From: Acephala macrosclerotiorum
Lineage: Eukaryota > Ascomycota > Leotiomycetes > Helotiales > Mollisiaceae
NCBI GenBank assembly: GCA_014904845.1
Contig: MU119205.1
Coordinates: 558,001 to 622,000, forward strand
Reading direction: 5' to 3'
Length of the DNA stretch: 64,000 nucleotides
Shown: positions 30,901 through 38,058 of the stretch, in pieces
Layout of the letters: each line of letters begins with the position of its first letter
How positions within the stretch are numbered: the stretch's first letter is position 1
Position numbers and translations under genes: made by a program
The notes under the pieces: generated by a model
The model's database searches: none
What the model saw: only the letters and a program-made list of their open reading frames with translations
Told to the model about the DNA's origin: nothing

Positions 30901-33214
30901 GGTCCTGATCCAGAATCCCAGCGAACAACGACTCCTCAACAAACAGAATTGATGGATCTTGTGACCATGGTAGGGGTTGATATTCCTTATCATCTGGAAT
31001 GTGGGTAGTGGGAAACATAATGTAGGCATGTTTGTCTCCACTGAACGGACGTTTCATGCCGTCATGGAATTGAGAGATGTAATTCCTAAACCCTCCCCAC
31101 GAAGAATATGGATTTCTTTGAGCAGGCTCGACACCCTGGAACCTTGACTGGTCGTCGATATCATCGAAAACTGGCACGAGGTGCCTGTCCGGGTCCTTCT
31201 CGATTGTACTTCTACTCGGAGGCTGGGAAAGGCCCAAGCTACCCTTCTCGCTTCCAGAGTCCTCTGATCCCTCATCTGAATATGGCGGAAAAGATTTCAG
31301 GGCGAGATGCCGCAGATGACCCACTATATGGTCTTCTAGGCAGCCTTTGACATCGCTTGAGCCACAAAACGGGCAGGATTTAAACAATGGTCCAATTGTC
31401 CGAGCATTTCGCTCGGCAAGTACGCGAAGTTGTGCTTTCGTGAAAGGACCATGCATTTTGCTCATGTGATCCGTGTATTCGGTCTCCATGTCGAATTGTA
31501 GTAATCCATGGGATTTTGAGTTACAGCGCCATCGTAAATCGTGCTTACTCATATGTTTAATCCATTCGTCATTGTGGTTATACAGCTCGTCCGGCCTGTC
31601 ACAATCTTCGAACAGACATACATACGCGTCGAGATCGTTTTTGACGTGGGCCCTACAAAATTCACCAGTCAGTATCTGTCAAGAAGTTCAGAGCGGTAAA
31701 GTATTCCTAGTTTGTAACCAGAACGCTGATAAGTACTCACTTCCATTTTTTCTCGTCAACAACATCCTGACTTGGGAGTGCGTAGAAGCAAAATGGACAA
31801 GTCACTTCTGCGATCGCTTGGGTGCAATCAACCCAATCCTGTTCCAAAGTCCTTTTGAGCTTCGCATCAGCATCAGAGATCTGTTCGGATATCATATCCG
31901 GATCAAAGGGTTGGAGTAACTTAAGGTAAGCCTTGTGGTCCTCTTCACGTTGTCTCTTCAGTTTTCTATACTTCTGTTTGATGCGACCAACAGGAGCTGG
32001 AGGGAAGATGAGGTCTTCGTGATTGCCCAAAGCAATGGTTTTGGACGCTGAAACGACAGAAGGCGTGGAGGCTTTCTTGAATTTATCGGGGGCCAAGGTC
32101 GTAGCACTGACCGCCATCGACTTTACAACGCTTTGGGAGTAGTTTTCAACGACTTCGGATGCATCTAGAACTTCATTTTCGTCCACCGAGATGACGTCTT
32201 GTGGCTGAGTGGTTGGAAACTTTATTGTAGGCTGTGAAATAGTATTCCTAGGCTTAATAGGAGTCTCTCCGTAGCGATTTCTCCTATATAGAATTCTCTT
32301 TCGCCGTTGGAGCATTGTAGAAGCAAGGCGCTCCCGAATCACGTCCCCGATGCCAGGGAATCGGTCAAGCACGTAGTTCGCAAAGACTTGCTGCAACAGT
32401 GGTTCCGCATCATTGCCATCATCATCTTCGATACGAAATTTCGATGCCCTGAGATTCTGCGATTCTTTACTTGCTCTGCGAATGGTATTTGCCAGCCTGT
32501 GAAGGAGATTTATTTCACCCGCGATTGCTCGTAGACAGCGATCGAGTTTCCCGTCCGCGACAACTACATCGCCTTCCGATCTCTCTGGCTGCGTGGTGTC
32601 GAGAGTCTTCAGGACAGCTAGGCCTATGTGCAATTAGCAATGCTGAGTCATGACTGTCATAACATGTACCCGTTTCTGAACATGTTCGGAGCGAGGCACA
32701 ACTCAGTTAGAAAACACTTCATCTAGGGTTCCAGCTTCTAAGGAGAATGATCATGGCGGAGAGCGACGTGGAAGAGATAGGTACGTTTGGCAAAAGAGGA
32801 AGTCACGTGATAGTAACTAAAGCTAACAAGCCACGATAGCTACCTTAGTGCAAGGAGTGCAGTGAGAATCCAGCTCGGAAGAGGAGAAAGACATCGACAA
32901 GTTCATCAGATCGCCAACATCGTATGAACATATATACACCTACAGTTCTGAATACTGTCATCCAGTGCATCCAAGAGACCTCGAACGACGTCTTGGACTT
33001 CCGGTACCTCCCTCAAACGATGATCCATAGAAGCTCGCCCAGGGGCGAAGACTCCAATACTAGCAGTCCATATCGAGAATCTTGCGATTTGATCCTCTAC
33101 CAGTGAGAGCTCTCGCGGAGATGTAGATGCAGATTGCTGAAGGCATTGTTGAAAAGACCCGAGGCACAGTTCGGAACCCCGAGTGATCGTGGGCTGCTGT
33201 TGCTCTGTAGCCAT
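27918..33214 (-). CDS. Large acuF-like C2H2 zinc-finger protein with NUFIP1-like motif and charged tail
   Basis: Six exons (33214-32944, 32623-31741, 31652-30534, 30487-29752, 29684-28398, 28328-27918) join in phase for 1,568 residues. The N-terminal ARFSIWTASIGVFAPGRAS and LDHRLREVPEVQDVV pattern is the fungal N-terminal domain common in acuF-like zinc-finger and STAND-type proteins. Zinc-finger segments follow: CPFCFYALPS (about 366), VCLFEDCDRP, RWRCNSKSHG and CPFCGSSDVKGCLEDHIVGHLRHLAL. At about 759-782, DLDAWLAERRSRYPTKAR resembles the conserved NUFIP1 motif. The rest is coiled-coil, and the last exon is almost entirely Glu/Lys, encoded by a microsatellite. Intron 1 is long (320 nt), so a split into two genes is possible. 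Probably nuclear; function unknown. Its start is divergent from the DUF7580-S8 protease. Confidence 0.7.
27969..28184. repeat. CCT/TTCCTC and CCTTCT microsatellite, coding for Glu/Lys
   Basis: Trinucleotide and hexanucleotide tracts (CCT)n, (CTTCCT)n and (CCTTCT)n. Read on the minus strand in the frame of the last exon above, they give poly-Glu and (Glu-Lys)n without a stop, ending at TAA/TAG-free 27918. Confidence 0.85.
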
Positions 33215-33814: not shown

Positions 33815-36800
33815 ATGGCGCCAATCCTTCATACGGACGAGAGTACTCAGACCATGACCTTGTTATTTGAGGCAACCAGGATGATTCGAGAAAGCGCTAG
33901 GCTTCTCAAGAACAATGAGAAGGATAGAGAGCTCAAGAATTTCTACAGCCGGTTAATGGCTCATTGTCTCATGGTCCGCGACCACGCCCAACGCATCAGA
34001 GCTGCTGTGGCACCAGACAATGAACTCCTACTTCGAATATTTGTTCTATTTGAGCCGATAACCACAATACATGTACTGCATTCAACATTCCCAGTCTCCT
34101 CTTACTCTCGGCTACAGGTTCTCAATCACCACTGGAATAAGATGCAGGATGAACACGACAGTATTAAGATCGAATTCATCAAGGAGCATCTAAACTTCAG
34201 ACTAGCTCCAGAGCAACGTGATGAGTTTCTCGAGTCCCTGGAGAAGTGGGAAGATGATCTCATTGCACAATACCCCGAGGACCCTTCGCAATGGTCCAAG
34301 GACGACTTCGGACCATCGAGGAGGAGTGGAAAGCAGCCCTCATACACTGTATGGAATGCAGCGCAGTCGATTTTCAAAGCGCTCATAGCTGCTAAGTGTA
34401 AATGTCAGCCTCCTCACGAGTTTGGTGCTAGACTTTGTTTAGGCACATACCGGAGACCGGAACTCGGCAACGACATTGACGAAGAGTTGGACTTCTGCAT
34501 GTTTCTTTCAATGCAACAAGATTGGAGAGAGGTACACGTTCATACAGTCAGGGAGACGTCAGTGCGGTTTGCCGACCAGCCAAAGAAGCTGCTGGGCTAT
34601 CAGCCAGCTAAAGTGAGGAATTTGTGCGGGCCGTTCGAGAAGATTCAGAAGATGGCATCACATCGTCTCGAGCTGAAGGTTGAGAGAGGCCGGCTCTGGA
34701 AACTACGGTCTGAGAAGAGCAATTTCACAATCGACAGGACGAAGACACCTGTCTCACTCGAACAGTTCATCAAAGACAGATCCGGATCTCTCACAGAGAA
34801 AACAAAACTTATTCTTGCTGTGTTGCTCAGTTACGCGGTCCTCCATCTACACGGGACGCCGTGGCTGCAACCCACGTGGAATTCTTCAAGCATAATATTC
34901 TTTCAAACAGCTTCTTCCACGATTCCCCTGAGACCTTTCATTCAAGCCCAGCTCGTGCAAGAGAGCATTGACGAAGCTACGCTAGGCCACGCTGTACAGC
35001 ACGAAGAGCTGGCATACGACCCTGACAACTCCGATTCGGATGGATTTGACCCAGATGATGTTGACCCAGATGACCTAGTGCTACATCATTGCCCATCGGT
35101 CGTCACTTTGGCGGTAATGCTAATGGAATTATATCTGGCAACACCGTTTGAAATACTCGCAAAGAAATATGGCGTTGGTTTGCCAGATGGGATACAGAAC
35201 CGCACAATATCTATCGATGCCGTCTCGGTGTTCCAAGAGTGTGAATCTGAGATTCCGGACAAATTCCGTTCCGCGGTGGAAAAATGCTTGGACCCGAAGA
35301 TCTGGCAGGATGAGAATGGCAGGAAGCTGGATGACCACATGCTAAGAACCATAATATATCAGGAGGTTGTTCAACCATTGGAAGATGAGTTGAGTAACGC
35401 ATTCAGTTCCATTTCTATCGACGAGCTAGACAGGATCGCACAGACTCTGGATTTTAGTAACTGGGGCCAGACTATACAGAACCAACAAACAGAAGGCCTC
35501 TCTCCTTGGCTTCATCCCGAGGATGCATACGGTCTTCCAAACGAATCTATGTCGGCTCCCCACTTTCAATATCTGACGGGGCTTCATGGGCCCTATCAAC
35601 AACCTCCATCACGCGCATGGGATCATCTTGCCGCACACGCCCCTTATATTGCCCAGAAGCTGGAGAAAAAGATGAATCACGAAGTCGACTATAAGAGTTC
35701 TAAGTTCTTTGATGACGAGACACTTTCTGAAGACCATTCCTCCGAAGAGTAAGCTATTGCCCTTACGGCCAGCTGCTATGCACACACGCCCTCTTACCTC
35801 TCGATCTCAGTCTGAAATTTCAGCCTTTCCACCGAGAAAGTATACTAATTTGTATGTCCATAGCTGCGACAAATATTTGAAGTGGAAAGATGACTTCAAA
35901 AAGGTCTACGACAAATTCATTGAGAAACCTTTACAAGATCGACCAAAACCGCCTATCAAAATCGCGATTCTCGACACTGGCGTGGATCTCAATCATCCGG
36001 ACATGGACGCACGCGACACGCAGATAAAACGCAAGTACAACTGGGTCAGTGAGCGATACAAGAAGATGGTTCATGATGACAATGGGCATGGTACCCATAC
36101 TGCGGGTCTGCTCCTCGACTATGCCCCAGACGCGGAGTTATACATAGCCAAGATCGCGGAGAATAAGCCGTCCAGCCCCATAGTGATCGCAGAGGTAACC
36201 TCGCGGAGAACATTTCCAACTTAAATAAGATCTAGACTGATATGAATAGGCCATAAATCATGCTATCAATCAGTGGAAGGTTGACATAATTTCCATGTCC
36301 TTCGGATTCCCAACACGCAGCATTGATAGCTATAGCGTGCTCGAAGGAGCCATCGAATATGCATATTCTCAACACGTCCTCTTATTTGCTGCTGCTTCAA
36401 ACAGTGGTAATAATCTGGATAGAGCCTACCCCGCCCGTGACCAAAACGTCATTTGTATCCATTCGACTGATGCGAACGGGAACCGGTCGAGGTTTAGTCC
36501 TACCGCCCTCGCTCATGATACAAATATAGCTACCATAGGTGAGGCTGTCCAGTCCGCATGGCCAGTGCATCTTTGCGACAAGACAACAAATCCTACCTTT
36601 GTCAAATACAAATCAGGCACCTCATATGCCACGCCTATAGCAGTGGGCATTGCAGCATTTCTGCTGCAGTACGCGAAGCTGCACCTGGGGGAAGAGCAGG
36701 TAGATAAGCTCAAAAGGCAGAAAGGAATGAAGGCTGTCCTTCGGAAGATTGCACAAAAGAGTCAAGATTCTAAACGTCGAGATGATTATGATTATATTGC

Positions 36801-36885
36801 TCTGAGTCTGTACTCTGACAACCTCTTTGGGAAGGGTGAAGGCTTCATAAAAGAGACGATTGTCGATGTACTTAACAATTCTTGA
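33815..36885 (+). CDS. DUF7580-like / subtilisin (peptidase S8) fusion protein
   Basis: Three exons (33815-35748, 35864-36194, 36250-36885) join in phase for 966 residues. The N-terminal about 640 residues are helical and include KLILAVLLSYAVLHLHGTPWLQ and a long acidic stretch before a VTLAVMLMELYLATPFE helix, as in fungal DUF7580 regions. The C-terminal S8 domain is complete: catalytic Asp682 in ILDTGVDLNHPDM, His720 in GHGTHTAG, oxyanion-hole Asn near 806 in AASNSGNN, and Ser880 in SGTSYATP. There is no signal peptide, so it should act in the cytosol. In fungi, cytosolic S8 proteases beside gasdermin genes (HET-Q2 type) cleave and activate the gasdermin. The next gene, convergent and 141 bp away, fits that role. 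DUF assignment is by pattern and less certain than the protease. Confidence 0.85.
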
Positions 36886-37026
36886 GATATCCAATTCACG
36901 TACGAGTCGTTGTACAGGTGTAAGATTCATGAGTTTCATAGCTGAATGAATTGGAAATACGTAGTTATCATCAATCATTAAGTCACCCACAGTTCCATCG
37001 AGTGCCGACAATACGTCGCCAACAAC

Positions 37027-38058
37027 TCACTCCGACTCTTCCTCTTCCTCTTCATCGATTGGAATTCCACAGGCAACCACAGCATCACCCTCCATTAACT
37101 CCTCCCTTTCGAACCTCTCACTCTCCGGTTCTAGATTCACCTCAGCGAAAGAAAGTTCCGGAACGTCTACCTTCTTAATCTCATCCCCCAGCATCGCGCC
37201 ATCCGTTTTATCATCGTCATACTTCACCGTCCCCGTCTTCTTCTCCACCCTAACCTTCCTCACCCTAAACGCAAAAACAAAATCACTGCTCCCTTCCCAA
37301 CTCGTACCCTCCTTCCTCTTATTCTTCAGCTCGATTTCTGGCCCGCCGCCAACCGGCACAGTGCCGCCGCTCCAAATAGTGCCATCGACTTCGACTCCGA
37401 GCTTTCCGCCGAGAGATCGTGACTTGTGAGATTCGGCTTTTGCTCCGATGACGACTTTGAGTCCGGTAATGATGTAGATTGGTTTTCGGTAGCGGGAGTT
37501 ATCTAGATAGCGACGGACCGGGGCGGATTCGATGCATTTTTGGATATACTCTTCTTTTGGGATGATTTGAGTGGTTTCTACACGTTCGAATTTGAAGACA
37601 TTTTCGTTGCTGTATCGTTGGGTGTGAGCATTAGTGTTCTTAGTCTTTGTCTTGGATTGGGTTTGAGGAGTTCAATGTCCGGAGTTCTGAACAGACTGTG
37701 ATGCAACAACAGCCATAATCAATATGTACGGGCAACACAGATGGAAGACACGCGCAAAAAATCGTAATTTAAATCCGTCATACCTGTTATCCCAATCGGC
37801 ACCAACACCAACGCCAAAGCCAAGAATGCTCAAAAACTTCGTCAAGATAGAGAATTTACCTTCTCTTGACTTCTCCTTAGAGTATTCGACATGGCTTTTC
37901 GTTGATAAGTATACCTCGGATTCAAGAGGCAAAGGAGCCGTATATAATGGCTGCTCTGGCTTCTTTATTGATGTGATGACGTTGCCAATTTTGATGGGCC
38001 CTGCGGGTGGATATTCCCAGGTTGGAGCGTAGAAGTAGTAGAATACTTGATTAGCCAT
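37027..38058 (-). CDS. Fungal gasdermin-like protein (candidate pore-forming substrate of the S8 protease)
   Basis: Two exons (38058-37784 and 37609-37027; 174-nt intron with a CTAAT branch) join in phase for 285 residues. There is no signal peptide. The N-terminus FYYFYAPTWEYPPAGPIKIG, the amphipathic FSILTKFLSILGFGVGVG, the FKFERVETTQIIPKEEY segment, RKPIYIITGLKVVIGA and the WEGSSDFVFAFRVRKV strand follow the layout of the fungal gasdermin-like family (RCD-1, HET-Q1). That family forms membrane pores after proteolytic removal of a short C-terminal part. Here the final about 50 residues are acidic and end in poly-Glu, a plausible inhibitory tail. Size matches the 240-290 residues known. Recognition is from motif layout and the adjacent protease, not from an alignment. 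An unrelated fungal family is the alternative. Confidence 0.62.

Follow-up and report, generated by a model that had tools for sequence, protein, structure and literature searches.

A gasdermin gene convergent with a DUF7580-subtilase gene in Acephala macrosclerotiorum: a probable pyroptosis-like module with a putatively pseudokinase-like candidate regulatory domain

A 64,000-nucleotide stretch of the Acephala macrosclerotiorum genome (contig MU119205.1, positions 558,001 to 622,000; hereafter, the window) carries two convergent genes, one coding for a protease that joins a DUF7580 domain to a peptidase S8 (subtilase) domain and the other coding for a gasdermin. We consider it likely that these genes form a fungal pyroptosis-like module, in which the S8 protease would activate the gasdermin and the N-terminal half of the protease would hold it in restraint. 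This reading draws on the genomic linkage of the two families, their co-divergence, a conserved island followed by an acidic tail in the gasdermin, the HET-Q2/HET-Q1 precedent and the putative pseudokinase-like character of DUF7580. A preliminary description of the locus had proposed a two-gene gasdermin/S8 module and was right in outline, the homology, fold and co-occurrence checks having come out in its favor. The features of the locus are as follows.

33815..36885, + strand: DUF7580-S8 protease gene, 966 aa (gene model, P0121 match, Pfam)
33815..34324, + strand: N-terminal helical region, residues 1 to ~170 (predicted model of P0121)
34343..35398, + strand: DUF7580 domain, residues 177-528, putatively pseudokinase-like (PF24476, hhalign)
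35462..35704, + strand: predicted disordered linker, residues ~550-630 (predicted local distance difference test, pLDDT, <50 at P0121 model residues 528-608)
35955..36768, + strand: peptidase S8 (subtilase) domain, residues 676-928, split by the intron 36195-36249
35973..35975, + strand: codon of catalytic Asp682 (same in 68/68 aligned relatives)
36087..36089, + strand: codon of catalytic His720 (same in 68/68)
36622..36624, + strand: codon of catalytic Ser880 (same in 68/68)
36886..37026, no strand: gap of 141 bp between the two convergent stop codons
37027..38058, - strand: gasdermin gene, 285 aa (gene model, P0001 identity, RCD-1/HET-Q1 matches, fold)
37030..37188, - strand: acidic C-terminal tail of the gasdermin, residues 233-285 with a net charge of -17 and a presumed auto-inhibitory role
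37189..37209, - strand: codons 226-232 (KTDGAML), conserved YxKGAML island, predicted processing region (column information, low-confidence linker)

The gasdermin coding sequence, complement(join(37027..37609, 37784..38058)) with the stop codon included, is interrupted by a single 174-bp intron (37783-37610), and its product is 100% identical over the full length to a public A. macrosclerotiorum protein, P0001. A profile of 67 gasdermins (alignment A2, chosen out of the 120 listed homologues, the best 120 of 177) matched the PDB chains of RCD-1 (E 5e-16) and HET-Q1 (E 6.8e-7) over the pore-forming domain. The predicted structure has a gasdermin fold, with RCD-1 as the nearest solved structure by both sequence and fold. 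No Pfam match was found for the window gasdermin at E up to 1, and the scattered weak Pfam matches of other relatives belong to unrelated families; one relative, P0039, has a precomputed Pfam accession, PF26164.1, which our own Pfam scan did not reproduce. Because Pfam gives no match, the identification rests on the PDB sequence matches and the fold, by which the 285-residue protein is a fungal gasdermin. The gasdermin-like nature assigned to it in the preliminary description, as well as the 141-bp spacing of the convergent 3' ends, are therefore borne out.

The protease coding sequence, join(33815..35748, 35864..36194, 36250..36885) with the stop codon included, consists of three exons; the two introns, 115 and 55 bp long, begin with GT and end with AG. 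Alternative pairings at the first intron also keep the frame open; the splicing adopted here is supported at both junctions by a public protein, P0121, from a contig of 4,026 bases, which is 100% identical to the product over residues 23-966 in an ungapped alignment. The Asp682/His720/Ser880 triad described earlier is indeed intact, and D682, H720 and S880, together with N806, are identical in all 68 aligned protease relatives (alignment A1, chosen out of the 120 listed homologues). At E up to 1, the Pfam matches of the window protease are solely DUF7580 and S8, and a reading of the protein as an NLR-type receptor was rejected because NACHT and NB-ARC are absent from these matches. The PF24476 match (E 7.8e-37, 128 bits, cut-off 27) is confined to residues 177-528. 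The earlier assignment of about 640 residues of DUF7580-like sequence was hence correct as to the presence of the domain and too wide as to its extent, since the domain is flanked by the helical region and the disordered segment at ~550-630. The N-terminal helices have mostly pLDDT 80-96 with dips to ~50-70 in the P0121 model (model number plus 22 gives the window protein number), and residues 1 to ~170 have no Pfam match. In both PDB fold lists for the whole protease model, the 50 rows listed are S8 proteins, judging by their titles.

Within the genome, which was scanned as 69.7 Mb in 778 contigs, the searches yielded 37 rows for S8 (31 merged loci), 16 for gasdermins (15 loci) and 26 for DUF7580 (23 loci). 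In the direct search, an S8 match was present no more than 5 kb away from 14 of the 15 gasdermin loci; since the matches are far above noise and the binomial P under random placement is ~9e-32, this pairing is not due to chance. The fifteenth, on contig C245, adjoins not an S8 gene but a 1,014-residue frame (L033:6691-9732, + strand) with TPR repeats and CHAT (E 6.9e-32), a caspase-like type of module. A sixteenth, diverged gasdermin (L041:5780-6721, - strand, contig C75), missed by the direct search and found with a broader profile only (E 3.5e-26), lies just downstream of a DUF7580-S8 locus and is convergent to it. Altogether, 11 of the 16 gasdermin loci are accompanied by DUF7580-S8, four by other S8 proteases (one of these partners has a sub-threshold TPR match) and one by TPR-CHAT, so that S8 neighbors occur at 15 of the 16, L041 included. 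DUF7580-S8 is the commonest protease partner of gasdermins in this genome.

The same association is seen from the side of DUF7580. At 11 of its 23 loci, an S8 match lies downstream on the same strand at a distance of 409-742 bp (557 bp for the window gene), which is consistent with one gene at each locus, a gene model having been built for the window copy. All 11 have a gasdermin neighbor, ten by direct search and the eleventh being the C75 locus; for the 12 S8-free DUF7580 loci, the direct search detected no gasdermin on the same contig, nor did the broader gasdermin profile find one at L044, one of these 12. The relative orientation of gasdermin and protease varies among loci and may be convergent, divergent or tandem.

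Several further elements were observed next to these genes. On contig C123, a gasdermin-like fragment (L030:3395-3775, - strand, E 2.7e-7) is flanked by an S8 frame on one side and a fuller gasdermin frame on the other and is perhaps a decayed or split copy. At L044:1677-3612 (+ strand, contig C8), an S8-free DUF7580 frame follows another frame whose N terminus has a hydrophobic stretch, GLVLGVLPLIVSAIE; the arrangement is possibly an MLKL-like layout. In the window, frames at 31737-33214 (- strand), upstream of the protease gene and divergent from it, possibly constitute a single multi-exon gene; the larger of them gave no Pfam hit with an E cut-off of 0.001.

Among the public relatives, 110 of the 120 listed protease homologues (the best 120 of 249) contain both DUF7580 and S8. 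The other ten, from metagenome-type sources, have DUF7580 alone in frames of 552-675 aa, as expected if the frame ends at the first intron. The protease architecture had been described as unusual, and this view is rejected, as DUF7580-S8 is frequent among the listed homologues and present at 11 loci of this genome. We further paired protease and gasdermin rows that sit on contigs of exactly equal size, using 119 of the 120 protease rows (P0167, with contig size absent, was left out). Forty-four of the 119 found a gasdermin row in this way, with the organism agreeing wherever it is named, and serial locus tags are consecutive in 14/14 such pairs (e.g., G7Y89_g12088/g12089 and FSARC_9471/9472). 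The partners of the remaining 75 may be absent from the best 120 of 177 gasdermin and 249 protease homologues. There are also serially tagged rows from the same organism that are not consecutive (Cylindrodendrum P0082/P0147, Cephalotrichum P0081/P0218), extra proteases with non-adjacent tags (FSARC_4000, P0238; ACHAPJ_006288, P0240) and same-species rows without serial tags on separate contigs (e.g., Biscogniauxia mediterranea P0055/P0132). Pairs from Lepidopterella and Cudoniella are 61-73% identical to both window proteins. The co-occurrence check proposed for the module was thus run and passed both in this genome and among the public relatives.

Gasdermins and proteases also appear to diverge together. 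Within this genome, the distances between gasdermins correlate with those between S8 segments (Mantel r 0.45, permutation p 0.0014) over 14 pairs from the 16 gasdermin loci, with the CHAT locus and L041 left out and L037 represented by one exon; because all pairs come from one genome, this correlation is not due to species relationship. Across species, the correlation is higher (r 0.75, p 2e-4, 42 pairs after exclusion of 3 out of 45 for length), with species relationship uncorrected.

The C-terminal part of the gasdermin would fit a precursor with a removable tail. The alignment of 67 gasdermins shows an island at residues 226-232 with a mean information of 3.39 bits, compared with 2.38 bits for the ten positions before it, 1.42 for the 11 after it, 2.91 for the pore-forming part and 2.46 for the tail. 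Gly229 is found in 65/67 and Ala230 in 66/67 sequences, and a strict YxKGAML-type pattern is satisfied in 59/67, the eight misses being variants of the pattern. The linker around the island is predicted at pLDDT <50 (residues 218-238). The island is followed by the acidic tail noted in the preliminary description, 53 residues with a net charge of -17, the remainder of the window gasdermin carrying +6. Judging from this conservation pattern, the island likely marks the cleavage region ahead of the acidic tail. In Podospora anserina, HET-Q2 reportedly cleaves the 278-aa HET-Q1 at F238, which takes off 40 residues or ~5 kDa (PMC10989679). The HET-Q1 PDB chain of 232 residues aligns with our profile as far as residue 227 of both and, if extended without gaps, would have its last five residues at the island. 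A cleavage register based on HET-Q1 was rejected, as the chain is aligned only to residue 227 of 232 and the F238 position cannot be placed.

The DUF7580 domain is reasonably probable to be pseudokinase-like, i.e., to have a degenerate kinase fold, on evidence that is moderate and partly conflicting. Its conserved strings at residues ~340-363 and ~430-445 resemble the catalytic-loop and helix-F patterns of kinases. We compared by hhalign a profile of 12 kinase domains from this genome with a narrow DUF7580 profile and with a broad one, widened with the DUF7580 domains of this genome. The broad profile matched kinases at 82% in local mode (E 1e-5), pairing the catalytic-loop and helix-F regions in order, at 77% in reverse order, and at 78% and 39% under two global settings. 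As controls, DUF7580 against S8 or gasdermin gave 0.0-0.3%, S8 against kinases gave 12.7%, and 20 column-shuffled kinase profiles reached 0.1% at most against DUF7580. In a viral fold library, kinases recur below the subtilases, accounting for seven of 17 rows from rank 14 to rank 30 (best E 0.005, prob 0.96). Given the hhalign register, the column of the kinase catalytic Asp of the HRD motif (354) holds T, G or S in 60/68 relatives and D in 1/68. The DFG motif was not seen in DUF7580, where hhalign leaves a gap, and an LRPF string, set by eye against DFG, has Pro in 67/68.

Other results weigh against a kinase relationship and would suit an unrelated regulatory or scaffold domain that lacks a kinase-type fold, an alternative that we hold to be rather unlikely and that would leave the rest of the module unchanged. 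The narrow DUF7580 profile reached 16.6% with kinases, compared with 12.7% for the S8 control, and one of the four broad-profile settings stayed at 39%. The column of the metal-binding Asn, occupied by Ser in the window protease, retains Asn in 26/68 relatives. All kinases of the viral list have E >0.001, and that list does not give the part of the protease model that was matched. A PDB sequence-profile search with exon-1 proteins found no kinase, and the link by this route was rejected, its only result being a chance homeobox match at E 0.033; kinases are also absent from the PDB fold lists of the whole protease model, which S8 fills to the extent that the N-terminal half was not probed. Speaking against a non-kinase domain are the local, reverse and higher global values of the broad profile, the near-zero level of the shuffled profiles and the share of kinases in the viral list. 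As proposed in the preliminary description, DUF7580 may plausibly act as a sensor or restraint, a proposal that we narrow to a putative pseudokinase-like fold.

The module reading as a whole also has observations that speak against it. The gasdermin model is moderately confident (mean pLDDT 69.7, predicted template modeling score 0.68), and it compares poorly with RCD-1 by template modeling score (0.29-0.38, normalized by query length). The two proteins have the same nearest neighbor in only 29 of the 42 cross-species pairs. Within the island, Lys226 (codon 37207-37209, - strand) is unique to the window gasdermin among the 67, the others having Tyr or Phe, and Asp228 occupies a position where 53/67 have Lys or Arg; because of these departures from the consensus, the cleavage site of the window gasdermin may be atypical. 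Finally, RCD-1, the closest solved relative, reportedly works without proteolysis (PMC12881547), as would be the case here if the gasdermin were RCD-1-like and triggered by a divergent partner after cell fusion, with the linked protease acting on something else. We find this improbable given that the linker island and the tail are conserved in 67 relatives, that a protease neighbors all 16 gasdermin loci found in this genome and that gasdermin/protease pairs co-diverge. Least probable of all is a decayed or neutral remnant that has stayed together by chance or recent duplication. The gasdermin-like fragment at L030, elsewhere in this genome, and the birth-and-death evolution reported for fungal gasdermin genes (PMC10197012) are in line with such a remnant. 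Against it, neither frame of this locus is disrupted, the triad is kept in 68/68 relatives and the Lepidopterella and Cudoniella pairs have remained similar to both proteins.

Under the preferred reading of an S8-activated gasdermin module, the gasdermin would be made as an inactive precursor, with its acidic tail (233-285) restraining the pore-forming part. The S8 protease would be its dedicated activator, held in restraint by its own helical region and pseudokinase-like DUF7580, which the flexible linker connects to the S8 domain. A signal, which may be non-self, a mycovirus or another invader, would change the DUF7580 part and release the protease, which would then cleave the gasdermin within its linker, in or close to the YxKGAML island (226-232). 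With the tail gone, the gasdermin would oligomerize into plasma-membrane pores, leading to cell death. The data themselves establish the gene structures, the intact and conserved triad, the homology and fold of the gasdermin, the linkage of the genes, their correlated divergence and the conservation of the linker island; from these we infer that the gasdermin is cut and where, that it forms pores, that DUF7580 restrains the protease and what kind of trigger acts.

Similar to this locus, HET-Q1/HET-Q2 of P. anserina combines a fungal gasdermin with an S8 protease, HET-Q1 being close in length (278 aa vs. 285) and its pore chain being matched by the window gasdermin profile. In contrast, HET-Q2 is a 388-aa protease, and het-Q1 and het-Q2 are idiomorphs at one locus (PMC10989679, PMC12881547), whereas here both genes occur together and the protease has the helical region and DUF7580 in addition. 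Fungal genomes are reported to contain gasdermin clusters with an S8 or CHAT gene within 10 kb (PMC10197012, PMC10989679), and the Q2L proteases of such clusters resemble the window protease in having an S8 domain with intact catalytic residues and a gene adjoining the gasdermin (141 bp here). Their named architectures include ANK, TPR, WD40, NLR and "kinase-like" ones (PMC10197012, PMC12881547, PMC10989679). The same literature counts ~1,900 gasdermins of fungi across 400 genomes; ~80% of them lie in clusters with proteases, for the most part of the S8 type, and the proteases show 18 architectures (PMC10197012, PMC10989679). In a 2025 review, fusions of protease domains with "other predicted kinase-like domains" are already noted, and what activates such sensors is regarded as a major open question (PMC12881547). 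DUF7580 is not named in the parts consulted of PMC10197012 or PMC12881547, nor elsewhere in the literature searched, a search that had the architecture table of the 2022 primary study outside it. RCD-1 of Neurospora crassa, the nearest solved structure to the window gasdermin, differs in being set off by the meeting of two alleles rather than by proteolysis (PMC12881547). Bacterial gasdermin-protease operons likewise have dedicated proteases that activate gasdermins (PMC10989679); the bacterial gasdermins match the window gasdermin weakly in sequence (E 0.007-0.01, and 3-5e-5 in a further search), and a lipid modification buried within them keeps them inactive (PMC10989679).

Two-gene gasdermin/S8 clusters are already known, and the window locus is a well-supported, ordinary member of this class. 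What is new is the resemblance of DUF7580 to a degenerate kinase fold, for which the sequence comparisons are moderate and partly conflicting, and the island at 226-232 as the likely cleavage region. The supposedly odd protease turns out to be widespread in related fungi and, in this fungus, to accompany gasdermins more often than any other protease type. DUF7580 is thereby a specific candidate, open to testing, for the step of regulation that is missing, as the island is for the cleavage region. A broader and more tentative proposal, possible although we do not favor it over narrower ones, is that DUF7580-S8 proteins constitute a large class of pseudokinase-gated receptor proteases, in which an MLKL-like layout and a gasdermin-firing protease are united in one polypeptide. 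If true, many ascomycetes would have such a fusion of necroptosis-like sensing with pyroptosis-like execution instead of an NLR.

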